Shown here: positions 2,012-13,942 of the stretch, in pieces
How positions within the stretch are numbered: the first letter of the stretch is position 1
Layout: every line of letters begins with the position of its first letter
IMG/VR virus record: IMGVR_UViG_3300023116_000466
Coordinates: 1-20,025 of that record
Strand: one strand, 5' to 3'
DNA: 20,025 nt
From: a virus
The notes under the pieces: model-generated
Told to the model about the DNA's origin: nothing
Databases searched by the model: none
The model's input: only the letters and a program-made list of their open reading frames with translations
Program-made: the position numbers and the translations under genes

Positions 2012-3682
2012 CTATCCTAGGAGGTTCTCGTCGAGCACGCCGAACAGGTCGTCGTCGAGAATGAACGGCGAGAACAGGTCGGCGTTCTCGGAGAAGGTCG
2101 TGAGGGTCGCGCCGCCCCTCGGGGTGATGTCCCAACGCACACCGACGATCATGCCGTCGAAGCTCATCGTGGACCCGGCTGCGTCGATCGCGACCGAGGT
2201 CGCGTCGCCGGTCGAGAACTTGACCATCTCCCAGCCGTCGTTGTCGCCAGGGAACACGGGCGGGAACCGCAGCGACCGCAGCACCATCGGGTCGCCGTCC
2301 TCCGGGCCGTAGCGTTGGAGGAACGACTCGGCGCACGCGAGCGTCGCCGCGTCGGAGACGGTGTGCATGTCGGTCCGGTGCTGGTCCTGCACGCCGTAGG
2401 TGTTCTGGGTCGAGGTCTGGCCTGCGGTCTGCTCGGCACCGACGTCGCCCTCGTACGCGGTGACCTGGAACGTGATCGCACCCGACGAGGCGGCGGAGTC
2501 GGCGGTGGCGTTCACGGCGAGCAGCGACTGGCTCGGCACGTCGACCGTGATCGTCTGCGTGCCGGTGTCCCCGGCGGAGAGTTTGACGAACGTCCCGAAC
2601 GTGTCCCAGTCGCCGAACACGTCGGCGGTCTCGACGAAGATCTTCACGGCAGCGTCGACCGTGTTGGCGGTGACGTTTAGGTACAGCTTCGTCGAGTCCG
2701 GTGCGGGCCATGCGACGGCGGACTGCCGCCCGAGGGACGCGTACCCGATCGAGGTGCCCGAGGCGAGGTCGGTGCCGCTGATGTAGTCGTAGTGGGTCCG
2801 CATCGTGAACGACGCAGCGGTGAACCCGTACGAGGTGCCGACCTCGAACTCAGCGTTGGCGAAGTCACGCGCCCCGGCTGGTGGCGACGACACGCTCGTG
2901 TCGTAGGCGATCAAGGGCTCCAGGTGCGACACCGACAGGGTCGGGTCGTCGGTGACGGTCGGCCCGGACCGTGCCCGGTAGGTCAGGAGGTTCCGCTTGC
3001 CGGTCGAGGTGCGGACGATCGGCAGCCCGTGCCGGACGAAGAAGTCGCCGTTCTCCGCCTCGATCGCTTTCCGCAGGTAGTCGCCGATGTTGGCGAACTC
3101 GGGGAACGCCCACACGTTCTGATCGGACGACCCGCCGTTGATGAGGTAGTGGTCGGAGGTGAACTGGGTCGAGGTCGCCAGCGACAGCACGAACGGCATT
3201 AGCCCGTCGGATGGCAGGGCGTCGTCACCGAACGCGACCTCGCCGCCTTCGGTGTTGGCCGGGTCGTAGAACCGGCAGAACGCGAAGTAGGTGCCGAGCT
3301 GCCCGAGCGCGTCGGTGCAGGTCAGGATGACCCGGCTGTCGAACTTGTTCGCGAGCTTCAGGTCGACGTCGGTGACGTTCCCGGAGAAGAACCGCGGCGT
3401 GTAGTCGCCGAGGTCGGGCGACTCGCCGGTGACGGTCGTGTAGAAGTCGCACTCGACCCCGACGAAGCGAGCGTTGGCCCAGGTGCCTCCGCCGCCCGGT
3501 GTGAGCGCCCCGTCCGAGTTGTCCAGCTCGACCAGCATCCGACCGGCTGAGTACGAGGTGGCGATGGCGGTCTTGCCGTACTGGATCGACACGCCGAGCA
3601 CACGGTCGATCGGGATGGCGTCCGGGTCGGCCCCGCCGTCCTTGTCTTTCGGTTGGAGTGCGATGGCGTAGTCCCAGGCCAT
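2012..3682 (-). CDS. Minor tail / tail-tip protein with inserted beta-sandwich domain
   Basis: A 556-aa protein directly after the tape measure (3-base gap), the usual position of the distal tail or tail-hub protein. The N-terminal region (VLGVSIQYGKTAIATSYSAG, then LVELDNSDGALTPG) resembles actinophage minor tail proteins, which share a DNSDGxxTP-type motif. Residues about 330-411 form a separate domain, starting near LYLNVTANTVDAAVKIFV and ending near SSGAITFQVTAYEG, that closely resembles the C-terminal domain of the larger tail-tube protein at 7429-8187. After it come an Ala/Gln/Thr-rich stretch (415-430) and a C-terminal part rich in Asp and Phe. The protein probably forms the tip ring that joins tube, tape measure and fibre. 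Exact family unknown; the tail-tip role rests mainly on position and N-terminal similarity. Confidence 0.75.
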   Translation of the reverse strand: MAWDYAIALQPKDKDGGADPDAIPIDRVLGVSIQYGKTAIATSYSAGRMLVELDNSDGALTPGGGGTWANARFVGVECDFYTTVTGESPDLGDYTPRFFSGNVTDVDLKLANKFDSRVILTCTDALGQLGTYFAFCRFYDPANTEGGEVAFGDDALPSDGLMPFVLSLATSTQFTSDHYLINGGSSDQNVWAFPEFANIGDYLRKAIEAENGDFFVRHGLPIVRTSTGKRNLLTYRARSGPTVTDDPTLSVSHLEPLIAYDTSVSSPPAGARDFANAEFEVGTSYGFTAASFTMRTHYDYISGTDLASGTSIGYASLGRQSAVAWPAPDSTKLYLNVTANTVDAAVKIFVETADVFGDWDTFGTFVKLSAGDTGTQTITVDVPSQSLLAVNATADSAASSGAITFQVTAYEGDVGAEQTAGQTSTQNTYGVQDQHRTDMHTVSDAATLACAESFLQRYGPEDGDPMVLRSLRFPPVFPGDNDGWEMVKFSTGDATSVAIDAAGSTMSFDGMIVGVRWDITPRGGATLTTFSENADLFSPFILDDDLFGVLDENLLG

Positions 3683-3685
3683 CGG

Positions 3686-6397
3686 TTAGCTGCCCGTCGT
3701 GATCGGGACGTTGCCATTGCGTCGTGAGTACGAGTCGAGGGTCCGAATGATGTCCGAGGCGTCCGAGCCGACCGGCATCTGGATCGTGACGTTCATGGTG
3801 CCACCGCCACCGAACCCGGCCGGAAGCGGCGACGCACCCGGCGCAGTCGACAGCGGCACGACCGCTTCCGGACCGGCCTCCCCGATGAGCGCGGTGGTCG
3901 GGCGGCGGACGATCGCACCGGTCGCACCTGCGAACCCGCGCAGCTCACGCCCGATGCCGAAGTCGTCGACACCGAACACCTCGCTCAGTACTCGCACGTT
4001 GAACTCGATGTCCGCGCCTTCGAGCGCAGCCAGGATCAGTTGCAGCTCGGCGATCTCGTCGATGCCTCGACCAGCCGCCTCGCCGATAGCAGAGAGCGAC
4101 GTCACCATCGTCTGCACCGAGACGAGCGCAGCGGGATCGTCGAACACATCGATCTTCGCCAGCATCTCGTCGAGGACTCCGGCGACGTCATCGCCGCCTC
4201 GGACGAACGCCTCCGCCATGTCCGGCGCGTTCTTCTTGCCGATCTGCGCGGCGGTCTCCGCAAGCTCCGAAGCGACCCGCTCCGCCTCGTAGAGCGCGTT
4301 GCCTTCGCCGAGGATCGCCTCCATGAGCTTCGAGAACTCGTCACGCATCCGGAACGTCTCGTCGGCGCTCAGCCCCATCGCACGCGCCATCTCATCCGCC
4401 CCAGAGATCACCTCGTCGATCGGTCCGCCGGTCTCGGCGAGTTCACCGCCGAGCGTGTCAACCTCGATACCGGCACGGTGCGCTTCGATCGACATGCCGT
4501 TCAGCGACTCGGCGTGGTTCTGGACGAGCGTGTCGACCCGGCCCATGATCTCCAGGTTCGACAGGTTCTGCCGCTGGTATCCGGCGATGATGCCCTCGCC
4601 ATCGAGGTAGATGTCGTTCAGTAGCCGGACAGCGTCGCCGCTATCGACCAACGCCTCTGCCTGAGCTTCGAGTTTCTTGCGATTGTCGTCGAACGCATCA
4701 GCGGTCTCATCGACGACGTCGAGCATGTCGTCGAGTTGCTTGATCTCCAGGTCGCCTGCGTCGAAGGCGTCGATCAGCGCTTCCGCCAGCAGACGCTCCT
4801 CTCCGGTCAGGTCCCGTATCGCCGTTCGCATCGCGTCAGCCGACTTGGTGTTTTCCAGTACGTCCTGCAACTCCTGGAACGCGTCGGTGCCGCTCTCAGC
4901 GACGACGGCCACGTCGTTCATCGAGATCCCGAGTTCGTCGAACAGCGGCAGCGTGTCGTTCCCCAACGCCAACCCGAGCGCCGTGGACGAACCGACGATC
5001 GTGTCGACATCGTCGGTCGTGTCGTCCGCTGCGTCGCCGACGTCCCGGATCGCGGCGGCGAGTTCTTCCATCCGGCCGATCATGATGTGCGTCGGACTGT
5101 CGGCGTCGATGAACTCCTGGGTGAGTTCTTCCTGCCGGTCCTTCGCCTCGCGAGCGTTCCCGGCCATCTCGCCGAAGACGTAGAACAGACCGCCGAGAGC
5201 GATAGCGATCTGACCGATCGGGCCGGACGCCACCACGATCGCCGTGATCCCGGCTGCGGCTGCCAACGCTGCCGGGTGCATATCCTGGAACCCTTCGATC
5301 AGGAACTGCACACCTTCGAGCATCTGCAACACGATCGGGATGATCGTCTGCCCGATCCCGATCAGCGTCTCCTGAAGGTCGGCCATCGCCTGCTGAAACT
5401 TGAACCCGGCCGTGTCCGACACGACAGCGAACGCGTCGTCGAGCGTGCCGGTCGTGTCGCGCATGTTGGCGAAGATCTGCTCGGTCGTCGCGACGTTCGC
5501 GCCCATGAGGTCCATGACGCCGGACAGCGCTCGGACGTTGCCGAATACCGAGGCGGATGCGGCGGCGTTCCCGTCGAACTCCTCGGCGAGCGTCTGGAGC
5601 GTCGCCAGGAGGCCTTCGTCCTTGATCTGTTGACGTAGTCCTTCGGACGAGAGGCCCATGCCTTCGAGCGCTTCCTCGGCCTGCTTGGTGGGTCGCAGCA
5701 GCGAGGACAGGATGCCGCGCACCTGGGTCGCTGCCTCGGCGGCGTTCGTGCCGGTACGAGACAGAGCGGCGAACGCTGCGCCGACCTCGTCGAACCGGAC
5801 ACCCATCGCAGAAGCGATCGGGAGGACTCGACCCATCGACCCGGCCAGCTCGGATGCTTCGAGCTTGCCTTCTCGGACGGCGGCGGTGAGGACGTCGGTT
5901 GCTTGGACTGCCGACAGGTTCTCGGCTCCGTATGCGTTGAGCGCCGAGGTGGCGAGGTCGGCGATCTCGGTGACTTCGCCGAGACCGACCGCTGCGGCTT
6001 GCGCTGATGCTTCGAGGGTCTCCATCGCCACCGCTCCTCGGAGACCGGCAGACTGGATGAAGAACATGGCGTCGGCGAGAGCACCGGGTGCCTGGGCGGT
6101 CTCGCCCGATAGCGCCCGCACCGACTCAGCCATCGCGTCGACTTCGGACCCGGCGATACCGACCAACGATTCGATCTTCGTCATCGAGTCGTCGAAGTCG
6201 ACAGCAGCCTTCACGGCGGCCGCACCGACACCGATAAGACCGAGGGTAAGCGGACCCGACGCCGCACGTGCGGCGGTCGTCGCCGCCTTCTGAAACTCGC
6301 CCGCCTGAAGCTGCGCCTTCGCCATTCCGAGCGTGTACTGCTTCGTGTTGGCGGTGACGATCGTGTTGATGCGGGCGACTGTCGTGCCTACGGCCAT
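3686..6397 (-). CDS. Tail tape measure protein (TP901 type)
   Basis: A 903-aa protein, the longest in the window, beginning right after the frameshifted chaperone gene ends. Residues 66-80 (VDFDDSMTKIESLVG) and the Ala-rich helical region to about 340 match the phage tape measure TP901 core. Hydrophobic segments at about 345-367 and 376-410 are typical membrane-interacting segments of such proteins. Residues 411-800 are mainly charged helix. Near 836-849 the motif ALIGEAGPEAVVPL is a hallmark of tape measure C-termini. It fixes tail length during assembly and is ejected with DNA. At about 0.15 nm per residue the length predicts a tail near 135 nm, a rule of thumb only. ATG at 6397 abuts the stop of the upstream frame. 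Confidence 0.93.
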   Translation of the reverse strand: MAVGTTVARINTIVTANTKQYTLGMAKAQLQAGEFQKAATTAARAASGPLTLGLIGVGAAAVKAAVDFDDSMTKIESLVGIAGSEVDAMAESVRALSGETAQAPGALADAMFFIQSAGLRGAVAMETLEASAQAAAVGLGEVTEIADLATSALNAYGAENLSAVQATDVLTAAVREGKLEASELAGSMGRVLPIASAMGVRFDEVGAAFAALSRTGTNAAEAATQVRGILSSLLRPTKQAEEALEGMGLSSEGLRQQIKDEGLLATLQTLAEEFDGNAAASASVFGNVRALSGVMDLMGANVATTEQIFANMRDTTGTLDDAFAVVSDTAGFKFQQAMADLQETLIGIGQTIIPIVLQMLEGVQFLIEGFQDMHPAALAAAAGITAIVVASGPIGQIAIALGGLFYVFGEMAGNAREAKDRQEELTQEFIDADSPTHIMIGRMEELAAAIRDVGDAADDTTDDVDTIVGSSTALGLALGNDTLPLFDELGISMNDVAVVAESGTDAFQELQDVLENTKSADAMRTAIRDLTGEERLLAEALIDAFDAGDLEIKQLDDMLDVVDETADAFDDNRKKLEAQAEALVDSGDAVRLLNDIYLDGEGIIAGYQRQNLSNLEIMGRVDTLVQNHAESLNGMSIEAHRAGIEVDTLGGELAETGGPIDEVISGADEMARAMGLSADETFRMRDEFSKLMEAILGEGNALYEAERVASELAETAAQIGKKNAPDMAEAFVRGGDDVAGVLDEMLAKIDVFDDPAALVSVQTMVTSLSAIGEAAGRGIDEIAELQLILAALEGADIEFNVRVLSEVFGVDDFGIGRELRGFAGATGAIVRRPTTALIGEAGPEAVVPLSTAPGASPLPAGFGGGGTMNVTIQMPVGSDASDIIRTLDSYSRRNGNVPITTGS

Positions 6398-6939
6398 CTA
6401 CTTCCTAGCCTTCGCTCGTTGGGCGGCCTGTTCTCGTTCAGAGTGTTCGATCCGGTAGAGAGCGATCCACTCGGTCAGTTCTTCGGATGACATGCGGGCG
6501 AGTAGCTCGCCGACAGTCATGCCGAGGTCGCGTGCGAGGCGGAAGTAGAACCGGCGCTCGGGGTTACCGCCCGAGAAGCCTAGGAGTCTTTTCCCGCCTC
6601 GTTGACCTTGTCCTCGGTCATGCCCGATCGCTCGAAGCACATCGTCCACAACCGCTCGATCACGGTCGCTGACTTGTCCATGAGCGCTTCCATGTCTTCG
6701 GTCTCGAAGATCGGGTCGCCAGTCTCGGGGTCGACGATGCAACCCTGAAGCGTGCGAGCCCACATGCCGAGAACCTTGTTGGCGTCGATCCCGTCGCCCT
6801 GCTGCGCGAGTTCCATCACAGCGGCGCGGGACTTCGCTGACATCGACTTGATGCCGACGGTCACGCCCCACTCGGGAACCTCGACCGTGTCGGTCGGGGT
6901 GTCTGCTGCGGCGAGGATCGCGGCTCGTAGGTCGGTCAT
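6398..6939 (-). CDS. Tail assembly chaperone GT fusion made by -1 frameshift
   Basis: This is the long product of a two-frame gene: residues 1-117 from 6939 to 6589 in the first frame, then base 6589 is read again and 63 further residues are decoded to 6398, giving 180 aa. The slippery site GGGAAAA (plus-strand ttttccc, 6589-6595) sits as G GGA AAA in the first frame and fits the X XXY YYZ rule exactly. The T part has a conserved look: ERRFYFRLARDLGMTVGELL followed by ELTEWIALYRIEHS, like the gpT-type motif of siphovirus tail chaperones. No good independent start codon with a ribosome site precedes the T frame. In lambda and its relatives the G and GT proteins keep the tape measure soluble and recruit tube subunits. 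The position between tube and tape measure genes is diagnostic. Confidence 0.87.
6580..6939 (-). CDS. Tail assembly chaperone G (unshifted product), 119 aa
   Basis: The unshifted reading ends at TAG (6582-6580), three codons after the slippery AAA. The start chosen is the ATG at 6939-6937 (MTDLRAAILAAADTPTDTVE), because an AGGAG sits at 6950-6946 with a 6-base spacer; an in-frame ATG eight codons upstream lacks this. The protein is acidic and helical, ending NEAGKDS. Its size and place match gpG-type tail chaperones, which are made in excess over the fusion. A 14-bp hairpin lies immediately upstream, so its level may be set separately from the tube gene. Confidence 0.87.
   Translation of the reverse strand: MTDLRAAILAAADTPTDTVEVPEWGVTVGIKSMSAKSRAAVMELAQQGDGIDANKVLGMWARTLQGCIVDPETGDPIFETEDMEALMDKSATVIERLWTMCFERSGMTEDKVNEAGKDS
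6589..6595 (-). promoter_or_regulatory. Programmed -1 ribosomal frameshift site GGGAAAA
   Basis: On the minus strand the codons read gcG GGA AAA gac tcc tag; slipping back one base pairs the two tRNAs on GGG and AAA. The new frame is open for 63 codons to 6398. A 6-bp stem CTCGGG/CCCGAG with a 7-base loop begins 13 bases downstream (6575 to 6557) and may stimulate slippage, although 5-9 bases is the usual spacing. Confidence 0.85.
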
Positions 6940-6959
6940 GGTGTGCTCCTGTCGTAGTT

Positions 6960-6999
6960 CCACCCGGCACGCTACTGGAGGGGAGAGCGTGCCGGGTGG
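6960..6999 (-). terminator. 14-bp perfect hairpin after the tail-tube genes
   Basis: Arms at 6960-6973 and 6986-6999 (ccacccggcacgct / agcgtgccgggtgg) pair perfectly around a 12-base loop. The hairpin fills the gap between the smaller tube gene (ends 7009) and the chaperone start at 6939. No U-run follows on the minus strand, so it may be a leaky, actinobacterial-type terminator or an mRNA 3'-end stabiliser rather than a classical Rho-independent terminator. Confidence 0.6.
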
Positions 7000-7008
7000 A
7001 GGTCACGA

Positions 7009-7416
7009 CTAGACGGTGCCTCGGGTGACTGCGCCGGTGACCTGGAAGTCAGCGGAGAAGGTCACGACGTCACCGACGGGGGACGACAGCGAGTAGCTCG
7101 TAAGGATGCATTCGCCGGTGTACTTCGACTCGCCGGAGGTACCGGTCGGCTGGTACTCGAACGAGCGGCTGGCGGGTTCGGCTCCGCCCTTGAGGTAGCC
7201 GTCGACGGTGGCGTCGTACATGCCGGAGATCGAGATGGTGGCGGATTCGAGCGAGACGATGTAGCTGCGGCTCGACGCGCCGAACGCCGTTACCTCTGCG
7301 GTGTCGGTTGTCTCGGGGAAGTCGACGCTGTTCAGGACGTCGCTGATGGGCTGAAGGGTGCCGCCTGTGTCGTCGATCTTGAAGACGGCGGACTTGCCGG
7401 TGGTGAATGTGGGCAT
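7009..7416 (-). CDS. Tail tube protein, short paralogue (135 aa)
   Basis: Starts MPTFTTGKSAVFKID and contains DTAEVTAFGASSRSYIVS and GMYDATVDGY, then ends SSPVGDVVTFSADFQVTG. This is the beta-rich pattern of siphovirus major tail proteins, whose hexameric rings stack into the tube. It shares MPTFxxGKS, the VTxxGASSRxxI core and the PVxDVxxxxADFQ end with the larger protein encoded directly upstream, so the two are tandem paralogues. It has no extra C-terminal domain. A strong AGGAGGA (7430-7424) lies 7 bases before the ATG and overlaps the stop of the upstream gene, as expected for a highly made protein. A 14-bp hairpin follows. It could be the main tube subunit, with the larger one mixed in, or the reverse. 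Confidence 0.82.
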   Translation of the reverse strand: MPTFTTGKSAVFKIDDTGGTLQPISDVLNSVDFPETTDTAEVTAFGASSRSYIVSLESATISISGMYDATVDGYLKGGAEPASRSFEYQPTGTSGESKYTGECILTSYSLSSPVGDVVTFSADFQVTGAVTRGTV

Positions 7417-7423
7417 GGTTCGC

Positions 7424-7430
7424 TCCTCCT
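7424..7430 (-). promoter_or_regulatory. Strong Shine-Dalgarno AGGAGGA of the short tube gene
   Basis: AGGAGGA ends 7 bases before the ATG at 7416-7414 and overlaps the stop codon (7431-7429) of the larger tube gene. The near-perfect match supports high translation and this start. Confidence 0.7.
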
Positions 7431-8187
7431 AGAAGCGTGCGAACGACACCATGAAGGTGATCGCTCCGGACGAGCCTGCGGTGCTGGCCGTGACCCGCAG
7501 GTACTGGTTGACGGTGCCGGTCACGGCCGACAGTTGAGAAGTGATGGTCGACGCACCGACAGCGGTGAACGTCACGAGGTCGGCCCAGACCGCGTCGTCG
7601 GCCGAGTGCTGGACCTTGATGGTCGTCGCGCCGTCGACGGTGTTGGTCGGGACGTGGAGCAGAGCCGCTCCGCCGTTCGTGCTCGACGCGCCGTTGTCGA
7701 CCGAGGCGAGGTTGCCGAGCGACCCGTGAGCGATCGACGCGCCGGTCGTGAGCTGCACGGCGGACGCCACACCGAAGTCGACGTTGTTCGCCGGGTCGGC
7801 GGAGCATTGGAAGTCGGCGGTCAGCGAGTTCACGTCAGCGACCGGTGTCGCCATCGTGTAGCTCGTCTCGTTCGCTCGGGCGATGACCGCCCGGTTCCCG
7901 ATGGTGCCGCCCTCGATCGCGACGGTGAGCACCGGGTGAGTGGCGGACCCGAGGATCGCTTCGAACTCCTTGTCGGACGTTCCGGCGGTGTTGGTGGCGT
8001 CGATGAGTCCGTTGAACGAGAGCGTGCCGGATGCCTGCGACGCGATGAACGCCCGGCTGCTGGCCCCGTAGGTGGTGACGTCAGCGGTGTCCTGATCGAA
8101 CCCGACGTCGGATGCCTGGAGGTAGGCGCTCATGTCGAACTCGTCCAGATAGACGGACGTCGACTTGCCGTGCTGGAACGTGGGCAT
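7429..8187 (-). CDS. Tail tube protein, long paralogue with C-terminal decoration domain (252 aa)
   Basis: Residues 1-135 carry the tail-tube pattern (MPTFQHGKSTSVYLDEFDMS, VTTYGASSRAFIAS, TPVADVNSLTADFQ) shared with the 135-aa protein encoded next. Residues 136-252 are extra: a linker, then a beta-sandwich-like domain from LLHVPTNTVDGATTIKV to the end SSGAITFMVSFARF. This domain closely matches residues 330-411 of the tail-tip protein. In lambda gpV and SPP1 gp17.1* an added Ig-like domain decorates the outside of the tube; a similar role is inferred here. GAGGAGGAG at 8202-8194 lies 6 bases before the ATG and is itself formed by the last Glu codons of the preceding 60-aa gene. The stop lies 12 bases before the next ATG. 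Confidence 0.82.
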   Translation of the reverse strand: MPTFQHGKSTSVYLDEFDMSAYLQASDVGFDQDTADVTTYGASSRAFIASQASGTLSFNGLIDATNTAGTSDKEFEAILGSATHPVLTVAIEGGTIGNRAVIARANETSYTMATPVADVNSLTADFQCSADPANNVDFGVASAVQLTTGASIAHGSLGNLASVDNGASSTNGGAALLHVPTNTVDGATTIKVQHSADDAVWADLVTFTAVGASTITSQLSAVTGTVNQYLRVTASTAGSSGAITFMVSFARF

Positions 8188-10413: not shown

Positions 10414-11367
10414 TCAGGCGACGCAGTTCGAGAAGAAGTACCCGAGGGCGCTGGAGACGACCTTGAAGTCCCAGGCGCTCTGGATCTCCAGGCGGTCGGC
10501 GCGGAGGTGGTCCATGCGGAACCGGCTGACGCTCGTCGAGGTGCCGATGCCGCCGCTGTTGGCGAGACCGGTCCAGGTGAAGTTGTAGCCAGCCGAGGGC
10601 TGCATGAGACCCGCGGACGCCGGGACGTAGGCGAGGAGCATGTCCTTGTCGCCGATCTGGGCGTAGGACGCCGTGGCACCCTCGTCCGCCGAGTTGACGA
10701 TGCTGCCCATGACGTGCAGCTCGTCGAGACCGAGGACCCGAGCGATCAGGTCGGTGGTCATGGACTCGCTGGTCGTGTACTTGTAGCGCTCGACGATGTC
10801 GGTGTGGTTCTTCAGGATCGAGAAGACCGCATAGCTGCACACGCCGACGTTCGGGCGGTAGCCTGTGTTGGTGAGCATCGTGTTGATGCCCGCCTGGACG
10901 TCGCCGATCGGGTCCGAACCCGAGGCCGACCAGAGGGTCGACGGGGTGGTGTCGGTGTCCCAGATGCCGGTGCCGAAGTAGTTGGTCGCCCAGTCGCGCT
11001 CCTGACGGATCAGCATCTGCTGGGCGAGGAAGCGGGTGGCGTCCTGATCCATGTTGAGCGGCGCGTCAGCGTTCGCTCGGGTCTGGTCGCCGATGTCCTT
11101 GTGGAGCGCCCACACGTTCGCCGAGTAGCTGTCGGTCGAGAGGCCGTAGCCCGAACCGGCGGACTCGGTGCCGTCGGCGCGGTACTGGACCTCGTCGCGG
11201 AAGAAGTCGGCCTGCGTGTAGGTGAAGAACTTGTCGGACTGCTTCGTCACCGGAACGCTCGGGAACACCTTGCCAGCGACGAAGTGATCCGCCTCCTGCA
11301 TGTAGGCGACCGAGATGCCGGTGAGGATCGCGTCGACATGGACGTCGGATTGAGTTGGCTGAGGCAT
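10414..11367 (-). CDS. Major capsid protein (HK97-fold)
   Basis: A 317-aa protein starting MPQPTQSDVHVDAILTGISV. Stretches such as YMQEADHFVAGKVFPSVPV, KQSDKFFTYTQADFFRDEVQ, GTESAGSGYGLSTDSYSANV and HKDIGDQTRANADAPLN follow the order seen in a widespread family of siphovirus major capsid proteins with the HK97 fold. The C-terminal part (DMLLAYVPASAGLMQPSAGY, then FRMDHLRADRLEIQSAWDFK) fits the A-domain and P-domain end. It lies directly after the decoration gene, with its ATG overlapping that stop (TGATG). GGGAGGG at 11381-11375, 7 bases before the ATG, is a strong ribosome site, in line with the highest-copy virion protein. No N-terminal delta domain is obvious; scaffold function seems to sit in a separate gene. 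Confidence 0.9.
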   Translation of the reverse strand: MPQPTQSDVHVDAILTGISVAYMQEADHFVAGKVFPSVPVTKQSDKFFTYTQADFFRDEVQYRADGTESAGSGYGLSTDSYSANVWALHKDIGDQTRANADAPLNMDQDATRFLAQQMLIRQERDWATNYFGTGIWDTDTTPSTLWSASGSDPIGDVQAGINTMLTNTGYRPNVGVCSYAVFSILKNHTDIVERYKYTTSESMTTDLIARVLGLDELHVMGSIVNSADEGATASYAQIGDKDMLLAYVPASAGLMQPSAGYNFTWTGLANSGGIGTSTSVSRFRMDHLRADRLEIQSAWDFKVVSSALGYFFSNCVA

Positions 11368-12440: not shown

Positions 12441-13643
12441 CTACGAGACGGGGTTGATCGGCGCAATCCAGCCGTCGGCGAACTGGTAGCGGAACGGGTC
12501 GGTGATGGTGCCAGCACCGACCCGCACAGGTGGCTCGCCGATCGTCGGCACGACGCGGGTCTTGCATCGGCAGTTCGGATGGGCGGGCGGGTTGCCTGAT
12601 CCGCTCGGCCAGAAGAAGTCACCAGCGAGCGGGACCCGCGTGCCGCCGAGGGGGACGCAGATGTTGCAGACGTCGAACGGGCCAGTGATCCATTCTTTCT
12701 GCGACTCGGGTGCGACGACGCCCGAATCCATCAGCAGCTGGTTCTGGTACTGGATGCCCGCGTTCTGGGCGTAGGCGATCTCGGTGCGAGCGATCGCTCG
12801 GGCGCGTGACCGACGCAGTCGATCCCCGTAGCGCTGCATCGCTCGCTCGGCGACTCGAAGCGCGACGCTCGGTCGTTGACCTGCGGCGATCTGCTCGAAC
12901 GCGATCGCGTTGCCGTGCTTGATGACCGCGGCGGTGTAGCGGTCGGTGAGTCCTCGAGTGTGGCCGACGTAGCGGGCGGCGAGGTCGGCACCGGTCGGGC
13001 GGGTCGGGGAGATGTCGTCGAGGATGGCGTAGATGGTCTGGGCGGTCTGTTGCGGGGTCAGGCCGGTGACGGTGCGGCCGGTCGTGAACGACTGCGACAC
13101 GGTGAACGAGTCGGTGATGGCGGTCTCGATCGAGGTGCGGACGGTGGTGGTCAGGTCGTCGAGGATCGACTCGGAACGGAACCGGGCGTAGATGCGGCCG
13201 GGCGCGTTCGGGTCGGTGCGGTCGAAGGTTCGGAGGTCGGCGTCCCAGATGACCTCGCGTTTCGCCTTGCGGAGTTCCGCGGTCGAGCGCAGCATGACTG
13301 GCGACCCCAGGTCGTAGAGGACCCGGTTGACGTCGCGGCGTTGCTGCTCGGCGGCGTCCTGTGCGCCTGACTGGAACGCTGCGAAGATCGGGCGCTGGAG
13401 GATGTCGGGGTCGTCGGTGATGAGTTCTGCGATGCGAGCGGTGAGCGTGGCGATCGTGACTCGGTCGTAGATGTAGTCGACGAGCAGGTCGGTCTGGATG
13501 GCATCCGCGATCTTCCCGACGGCCGTGGCGACGGTGCGTTCGGACCCGTAGAGCTTGTCGGAGTCGACCGGTCGAAACTCAGGGCGGTGGTTCTTGTAGA
13601 CCTCGCCGGGATCACGGTCGCCCATGTCGACCCGTACCGTCAT
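12441..13643 (-). CDS. MuF-type minor head protein, 400 aa
   Basis: The start is the ATG at 13643-13641 (MTVRVDMGDRDPGEVYKNHR), overlapping the upstream stop as ATGA. An upstream extension in the same frame is Arg-rich and covers the 100-aa gene, so it is not used. Residues 250-330 contain VERAMQRYGDRLRRSRARA-like helices and ARTEIAYAQNAGIQ, and the C-terminal region has CNIC (326-329) with PPAHPNCRC (352-360), the Cys/His zinc-type motif of the phage head morphogenesis (MuF/SPP1 gp7) family. Such proteins bind the portal inside the capsid and may be ejected with DNA. It directly follows portal and a 100-aa gene, the normal order in Mu-like heads. Confidence 0.88.
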   Translation of the reverse strand: MTVRVDMGDRDPGEVYKNHRPEFRPVDSDKLYGSERTVATAVGKIADAIQTDLLVDYIYDRVTIATLTARIAELITDDPDILQRPIFAAFQSGAQDAAEQQRRDVNRVLYDLGSPVMLRSTAELRKAKREVIWDADLRTFDRTDPNAPGRIYARFRSESILDDLTTTVRTSIETAITDSFTVSQSFTTGRTVTGLTPQQTAQTIYAILDDISPTRPTGADLAARYVGHTRGLTDRYTAAVIKHGNAIAFEQIAAGQRPSVALRVAERAMQRYGDRLRRSRARAIARTEIAYAQNAGIQYQNQLLMDSGVVAPESQKEWITGPFDVCNICVPLGGTRVPLAGDFFWPSGSGNPPAHPNCRCKTRVVPTIGEPPVRVGAGTITDPFRYQFADGWIAPINPVS

Positions 13644-13942
13644 GGCGAATAGAACACCGAACCGACAGCGGTGCCGGTGATGACCTCGCAGTAGATCCCG
13701 TCGGGACAGTGGACGCCGTTCGGCCCGTACCAGATCGTCCCGGCACCGTTCGAGGAGATGTCCAGCGCGGCGACGTGTTCGCCCGACGTCGACGTGCCGT
13801 TGTGCAGGTGGACCTTCACGTTCGCTGCGCCCTCGTCGCACAGCACGATCCCGTAGAGGACCGAGCTGCCGGTGACGATCTGCTGGTTGCCGCCGGTGAA
13901 CTCGGCGATCGAGGCGGGCGGGTCGATGTACGAGTTGGTCAT
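13640..13942 (-). CDS. Hypothetical small beta-rich protein, 100 aa
   Basis: The ATG overlaps the portal stop (TGATG) and the stop overlaps the MuF start (ATGA), so it is expressed with both. The sequence has alternating beta-like stretches: SSVLYGIVLCDEGAANVKVH, LHNGTSTSGEHVAALDIS and YCEVITGTAVGSVFYSP. The words LYGI, VKVHxHNGTSTSG and VITGTAVG resemble small phage proteins of unknown function that form compact beta sandwiches. Two Cys (in HCPDGIYC) are close together near the C-terminus. It may be a head fibre, a decoration or a portal-associated protein; I cannot name the family. Confidence 0.7.
   Translation of the reverse strand: MTNSYIDPPASIAEFTGGNQQIVTGSSVLYGIVLCDEGAANVKVHLHNGTSTSGEHVAALDISSNGAGTIWYGPNGVHCPDGIYCEVITGTAVGSVFYSP

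Follow-up and report, generated by a model that had tools for sequence, protein, structure and literature searches.

We analysed a window of 20,025 bases (IMG/VR record IMGVR_UViG_3300023116_000466, positions 1 to 20,025), a phage contig whose structural genes lie on the minus strand, and focused on a domain that occurs in two of its tail proteins. The first is the long tail-tube protein (252 amino acids (aa), 7429-8187, minus strand; PHROG 9522), which combines an N-terminal tube-forming part (residues 1-136, 7780..8187), paralogous to the short tube protein, with a C-terminal jelly-roll domain (residues 137-252, 7432..7779) recognised by homology to the tip protein, an AlphaFold2 (AF2) model and a match to the cement protein of phage BPP-1. 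The second is the tail-tip (putative hub) protein (556 aa, 2012-3682, minus strand), assigned from its position after the tape measure gene. Its N-terminal part (residues 1-293, 2804..3682) is common to relatives that lack the domain; a diverged copy, with a jelly-roll fold predicted from homology, occupies residues 294-410 (2453..2803) as a clean insertion of 117 aa; and the relatives align again in the C-terminal part (residues 411-556 and the stop codon, 2012..2452).

The domain in the tube and tip proteins

A sequence-only reading of the window had proposed that the two structural proteins carry the same beta-sandwich domain on the basis of three shared motifs, all of which are present as described: NTVDGATTIKV (residue 182), WADLVTF (201) and SSGAITFMV (239) in the tube protein, and NTVDAAVKIFV (340), WDTFGTF (359) and SSGAITFQV (399) in the tip protein. 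Tube residues 142-248 aligned with tip residues 302-408 by blastp (35% identity, E = 1e-7), and the profile comparison that the reading had called for, made with a 68-row tube profile, recovered tip residues 302-409 (hhalign E = 2e-5, probability 77%). In Smith-Waterman comparisons the tube C-terminal domain and the tip insert gave z = 11.9, a score that 0 of 1000 composition-preserving shuffles attained. Against eight other window proteins used as controls (200 shuffles each), the tip insert gave z values of 1.2 or less and the tube domain 2.4 or less, except for z = 4.7 with the 100-aa protein at 13643-13942. Independent tube proteins on other contigs also matched the tip insert, including that of locus L004 (27.2 bits, compared with 25.3 for the window's own tube protein). 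The abundance of A, T, S, V and G in both segments, read from the sequence, would suit convergence or low-complexity composition in two unrelated beta-sandwiches, but the shuffles, the co-linear match over >100 residues and the cross-hits from independent relatives make that explanation very improbable. Based on blastp, shuffles and cross-hits, the two segments are almost certainly the same homologous domain. The reading had located it correctly and drawn it too short, as the domain covers ~105-115 residues (7432-7779 and 2453-2803).

Fold and relationship to capsid cement proteins

AF2 predicted a jelly roll for the tube copy from 99 aligned rows with high confidence (predicted local distance difference test (pLDDT) 92.3, predicted template modelling score 0.85); the complete long tube protein, predicted from 13 rows, reached a pLDDT of only 31. 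The structure prediction proposed as a check thus bore out the fold for the tube copy, whereas the fold of the tip copy is predicted from homology to the tube copy. When the tube model was compared with known structures by VIA-align, the BPP-1 cement protein (3J4U) ranked first (Z = 12.1, 2.2 Å over 107 residues) and the Carin1 capsid decoration protein (PDB 8CJZ) second (Z = 10.1, 2.4 Å over 105 residues), followed by XepA (Z = 9.4) and other jelly rolls from about Z = 9 downward. Foldseek likewise ranked 3J4U first in the PDB (E = 5.4e-5) and a stand-alone protein of phage PPpW-3 first in a viral library (E = 1.2e-8). Infectious bursal disease virus VP2, furin, Kex2, the 4-1BB ligand and others in the VIA-align and Foldseek lists are unrelated, and we read them as sharing a common fold only.

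The relationship to cement proteins was also apparent in sequence. A tube-only profile (68 rows, with the tube N-terminal domain checked in all 68) found 3J4U at E = 2.2e-6, and 14 of the 68 tube members matched the Pfam family Bbp16 (PF21190) at E of 0.01 or better. The tube profile aligned with a 21-row profile of stand-alone relatives at E = 9e-17 (98.8%); the Carin1 match was marginal (E = 0.054 with a mixed profile). No immunoglobulin (Ig) family in Pfam matched the long tube or tip protein at E = 1, nor the 68 tube members at E = 0.01. From these sequence and model comparisons we assign the shared module, ~105-115 residues long, to jelly rolls of the type seen in the BPP-1 cement protein (Bbp16); common ancestry of the domain and the cement proteins is very likely. 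Bbp16 is described as a separate protein that sits as dimers on the BPP-1 capsid, dimerising via F strands and binding the shell, and its deletion is reported to abolish infectious BPP-1 particles (PMC3863775). The tube copy thus resembles Bbp16 in its jelly-roll fold and in detectable sequence homology. Bbp16 is, however, a capsid protein of its own, and in the window the domain occurs as a fusion to a tube protein and as an insertion within a tip protein; it is a cement relative used elsewhere, not a cement protein. The Carin1 protein shares the jelly roll and differs in being a head decoration with only a marginal sequence match.

Stand-alone relatives of the domain are typically encoded beside capsid genes. 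Such a gene lay just upstream in 27 of the 32 stand-alone or unclassified open reading frames (ORFs) with room to judge, a count made on neighbourhoods fetched with one seed, the PPpW-3 protein, and including PPpW-3 twice (L047 and L156). In all, 34 ORFs were listed, with L174 and L186 set aside for want of room, and the ORFs of L046, L097, L152 and L184 and the window copies were excluded before counting. The five ORFs with no capsid match were those of L178, L179 and L181, which are similar ORFs of 249 aa, and those of L180 and L182. Only the L179 ORF was scanned among these, and it matched the tube family PHROG 9522 over residues 11-240; L178, L179 and L181 look like tube proteins. PHROG 5707 was matched by 4/4 stand-alone relatives scanned (L047, L158, L161 and L197), and those in L161 and L197 passed the Bbp16 Pfam cut-off. 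The PPpW-3 protein itself, ORF-7 of this Pseudomonas phage (L047, 7289-7636), is annotated as hypothetical and is a stand-alone cement-type jelly roll near a capsid gene.

Tail genes, tip insertion and reuse

The long tube protein was identified as a major tail protein by both profile match and gene place ahead of the tape measure: PHROG 9522 covers residues 1-251, jelly roll included (E = 1.1e-46), although the family name as listed is silent on the C-terminal domain. Directly downstream lies the gene of the short tail-tube protein (135 aa, 7009..7416, minus strand), which lacks the jelly roll and matches Pfam Phage_tail_2 (E = 7.2e-7) and PHROG 10528 (E = 1.9e-40). The two are adjacent paralogues (35% identity, E = 5e-17). 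With a model of 89 short proteins, the long tube gene had a short gene after it in 102 of the 118 ORFs with room to judge (77 of the 91 distinct ones; a single-query count gave 90 of 118). Such pairing points to a tube in which decorated and plain subunits are mixed or follow one another. An initial search with the long tube protein gave 37 loci; in 36 of them the match extends to residue 251 or 252, and in L029 it stops at the contig end. Because the query was the full-length protein, this set gives no unbiased prevalence of the domain. Annotators of Arthrobacter, Microcystis and Microbacterium phages differ on which of the paired tube genes encodes the major tail protein. At L212 (9449-10606), a tube protein of 386 aa continues for ~76 residues past the jelly roll, and the domain there looks internal rather than C-terminal.

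Comparison with related tip proteins delimits the insertion. Tip proteins of L009, L011 and L014 match the window protein on both sides of the domain and lack the domain itself. We collected 59 tip-protein ORFs besides the window's copies, 12 of which miss the site; the remaining 47 (30 distinct) span it, 39 in one piece and 8 in two. The jelly roll is absent from all 47, and the match lengths leave no room for it at the site. Read from the alignment, the insertion site looks like a hairpin loop. Searches with the whole tip protein or the insert found only a near-identical contig among viral contigs, and nothing, or one chance match at E = 8, in a phage collection. The tip protein family had no match in Pfam, PHROG or the PDB, with a hub profile also compared against PHROGs and the PDB. 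A relative of the tip protein at L152 (3791-6607) carries a different net insertion of 416 aa near hub position 90, and part of this relative matches PHROG 5313, a family of unknown function. Insertions seem to be tolerated at more than one site of the tip protein.

The tip copy has diverged strongly from the rest of the family. When the tip copy is set aside, eight columns of the alignment are at least 90% conserved across the 98 rows (L, K, Q, H, S, D, F and R). The tip copy retains two of these (L and F), whereas seven or eight are retained in 97 of the 98. Conservation of the QHS motif over all rows is partly built in, since the scans that supplied most of them required it. Counts of family members depend on detection and sampling; one viral scan, which yielded the best 80 of at least 423 relatives, used the QHS motif as its sole pattern and under-samples non-tube contexts and members that lack it. 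Among the 28 rows from scans made without the pattern, Q, S and R were kept in 28 of 28 and K and H in 27 of 28. The BPP-1 cement protein keeps Q, S, D and R, and not K or H, in the printed alignment.

A phylogenetic tree nested the tip copy within the tube proteins (43-row branch, 100/100), with 2.72 changes per column along the tip copy's own branch. Approximately unbiased (AU) tests on 46 of the 99 rows rejected neither a grouping of the tip copy with its own tube clade (p = 0.43) nor one with the stand-alone proteins (p = 0.215). Horizontal exchange, in which the copy came from the tube, capsid or tip protein of another phage and then diverged, is a tentative possibility that falls short of an even chance: the copy is slightly closer to certain tube proteins from other phages than to that of the window (34% identity to L083, compared with 30% to the window's tube copy, in the alignment), and the 47 sister tip proteins described above lack the domain, but neither the viral contigs nor the phage collection held a nearer donor, within the limited reach of such searches for so diverged a sequence. 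We consider it rather unlikely that the tip copy is an internal duplicate of the tube domain of this phage or a direct ancestor. The two copies are encoded in a single gene block, the tip copy groups with tube proteins in the tree and the AU test does not reject its own tube clade, but the lower identity to the window's tube copy than to L083 and the long tip branch speak against such an origin.

Reuse of the domain was then assessed in 54 whole records, chosen because they carry it. A second copy was found in four: the twin contig of the window (G001, in the tip protein), Arthrobacter phage Ottawa, G044 and G045. Ottawa gp102 (L211, 6089-8392; hypothetical, 767 aa) contains two jelly-roll stretches, the first strong (E = 4e-14) and the second weak (E = 2.8e-4), and lies in the head gene block, one small gene past the capsid gene and ahead of the head-to-tail stopper. 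In G044 the second copy, likewise in the head gene block, is a small protein encoded past the capsid gene (PHROG 5707), and in G045 it is a 460-aa protein of unknown role; Ottawa and G044 also carry a tube copy. A further context is a 248-aa protein of Streptomyces phage Dagobah, which has a weak likeness, below cut-off, to lambda-type tube proteins. Use of the domain in both head and tail is therefore not unique to the window. Domain shuffling, one of the two explanations offered in the sequence-only reading, fits these observations: the insertion is lacking in the fetched relatives of the tip protein, and three other records of the 54 hold second copies.

The structural genes of the window follow a head-to-tail arrangement. 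Terminase and portal genes, named by eye from their translations, lie at the head side of the block; genes for head proteins, the major capsid gene (10414-11367, PHROG 1005), several small genes and the tail-tube genes come next. The tape measure gene (3686..6397) was identified by PhageMin_Tail (E = 9.3e-27) and by PHROG tape measure matches, and a fibre-like protein (871-2004) is encoded after the tip protein. The 100-aa protein at 13643-13942 is beta-rich, lies between the portal and head genes, and has PHROG 28102, of unknown function, as its sole match. At 1-771, cut by the contig end, is a protein that, read by eye, has a signal-like start and long threonine-rich runs; a Pfam scan of it gave no match. 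The twin contig G001 (34,315 bp) matches the window at 99.97-99.99% over the stretches compared, and its ends overlap each other by 140 bases, at window 6351-6490; it is probably a complete circular assembly of the same phage. A whole-record search of G001 found the tube and tip copies of the domain as the only ones at E of 0.01 or better.

Decoration, binding and meaning

In our interpretation the domain is probably a portable module that decorates the virion surface, with a structural role on the tube and a different one in the diverged tip copy. Its parts differ in strength: use as surface decoration on the tube is likely, a mainly structural rather than glycan-binding function there is slightly favoured, and a change of role in the tip copy is somewhat better supported than that. 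In such a scheme, the N-terminal part of the long tube protein would polymerise with or beside the undecorated short paralogue, and its jelly roll would project outward from the tube surface, pack on neighbouring subunits and stabilise the tube, perhaps with weak surface adhesion too, filling the place of the Ig-like domains on other siphophage tails. A loop of the hub-like protein would have received a member of the same family, able to fold there as an outward bulge of its own. The tip copy would then have lost the polar signature, which makes a changed contact likely, the most probable new partners being the tip's own fibres or the host.

The sequence-only reading had suggested a common ligand on the host surface, such as a glycan, for both proteins. 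A version in which both copies are carbohydrate-binding adhesins that act on the same host glycan, along the tail and at its tip, is improbable in our assessment. It draws on fold likeness to carbohydrate-binding modules (CBMs), with CBM32, CBM16 and chitosan-binding modules at Z of about 7.5-8.4, on matches of 18 of the 68 tube members to F5/8 type C at E of 0.01 or better (best 5.6e-5), and on lactococcal 936 phages, for which a tail-protein extension and a neck CBM are reported to have bound host cells as green fluorescent protein fusions (PMC6669499). The closest relatives by both sequence and fold are, however, capsid cement and decoration proteins, which runs counter to the proposed ligand, and six of the eight near-invariant residues are missing from the tip copy, so that a ligand common to both copies is not required. 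No F5/8 or CBM family in Pfam matched the long tube or tip protein at E = 1, and F5/8 type C reached 23.5 bits in a stand-alone member, compared with a cut-off of 28.2. The weak resemblance to F5/8 type C and CBM jelly rolls keeps a binding role possible.

The CBM and F5/8 likenesses are among several points that weigh against reading the domain as a decoration module. To these belong the single-seed stand-alone neighbourhoods, the scans that required the QHS motif and the AU tests, as given above. The name of the tip protein, tail-tip or hub, comes from the place of its gene after the tape measure gene and is putative. The window's own tube domain alone matched no Pfam family at E = 0.01. The stand-alone profile barely aligned with the tip copy (hhalign E = 0.027, probability 1.8%), and the link of the tip copy to cement proteins therefore goes via the tube copies. 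The Dagobah copy also departs from the QHS motif, so that this departure is not unique to the tip.

A portable decoration module has precedents in kind in the promiscuous Ig-like domains and in the CBMs of 936 phages. C-terminal Ig-like domains face outward on lambda, T5 and YSD1 tubes, and SPP1 gp17.1 occurs as long and short forms in a 3:1 ratio, made by frameshift (PMC8718954); Ig-like domains in phage head, tail and decoration proteins are described as promiscuous (PMC7602432). Like these decoration domains (lambda gpV, T5 pb6, YSD1 and the SPP1 gp17.1 extension), the window domain is a C-terminal beta-sandwich on a siphophage tube protein, but they belong to the Ig-like fold family and it is a jelly roll. 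The tube pairs of SPP1 and the window are formally alike, although SPP1 makes its two forms by frameshift and the window has two paralogous genes. The 936 phages are a similar case, in that several of their virion proteins contain beta-rich modules. Two of these modules are reported to bind host cells (PMC6669499), and no family link between them and the window domain was found. A literature search, covering titles and abstract openings and mostly without subscription papers, found no cement-type jelly roll tied to tail-tube or tip proteins, which is weak evidence of novelty.

More speculatively, and with somewhat less than even odds, one jelly-roll lineage may serve as interchangeable surface cladding of the whole tailed-phage particle, as capsid cement, tube decoration and tip insert, and pass between head and tail genes both inside a genome and from one genome to another; the tip copy here would have been turned into a new contact or a receptor-binding element. 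The promiscuous decoration domains known so far are mainly Ig-like folds and CBMs, and reuse of a head-cement jelly roll on both the tube and the tip would broaden this picture and link the ancestry of head and tail surface parts. It would also give a testable structural meaning to the C-terminal half of PHROG 9522 and to PHROG 5707, of unknown function, and the adjacent genes for decorated (long) and plain (short) tube proteins offer a natural comparison of the effect of decoration on a flexible tail.

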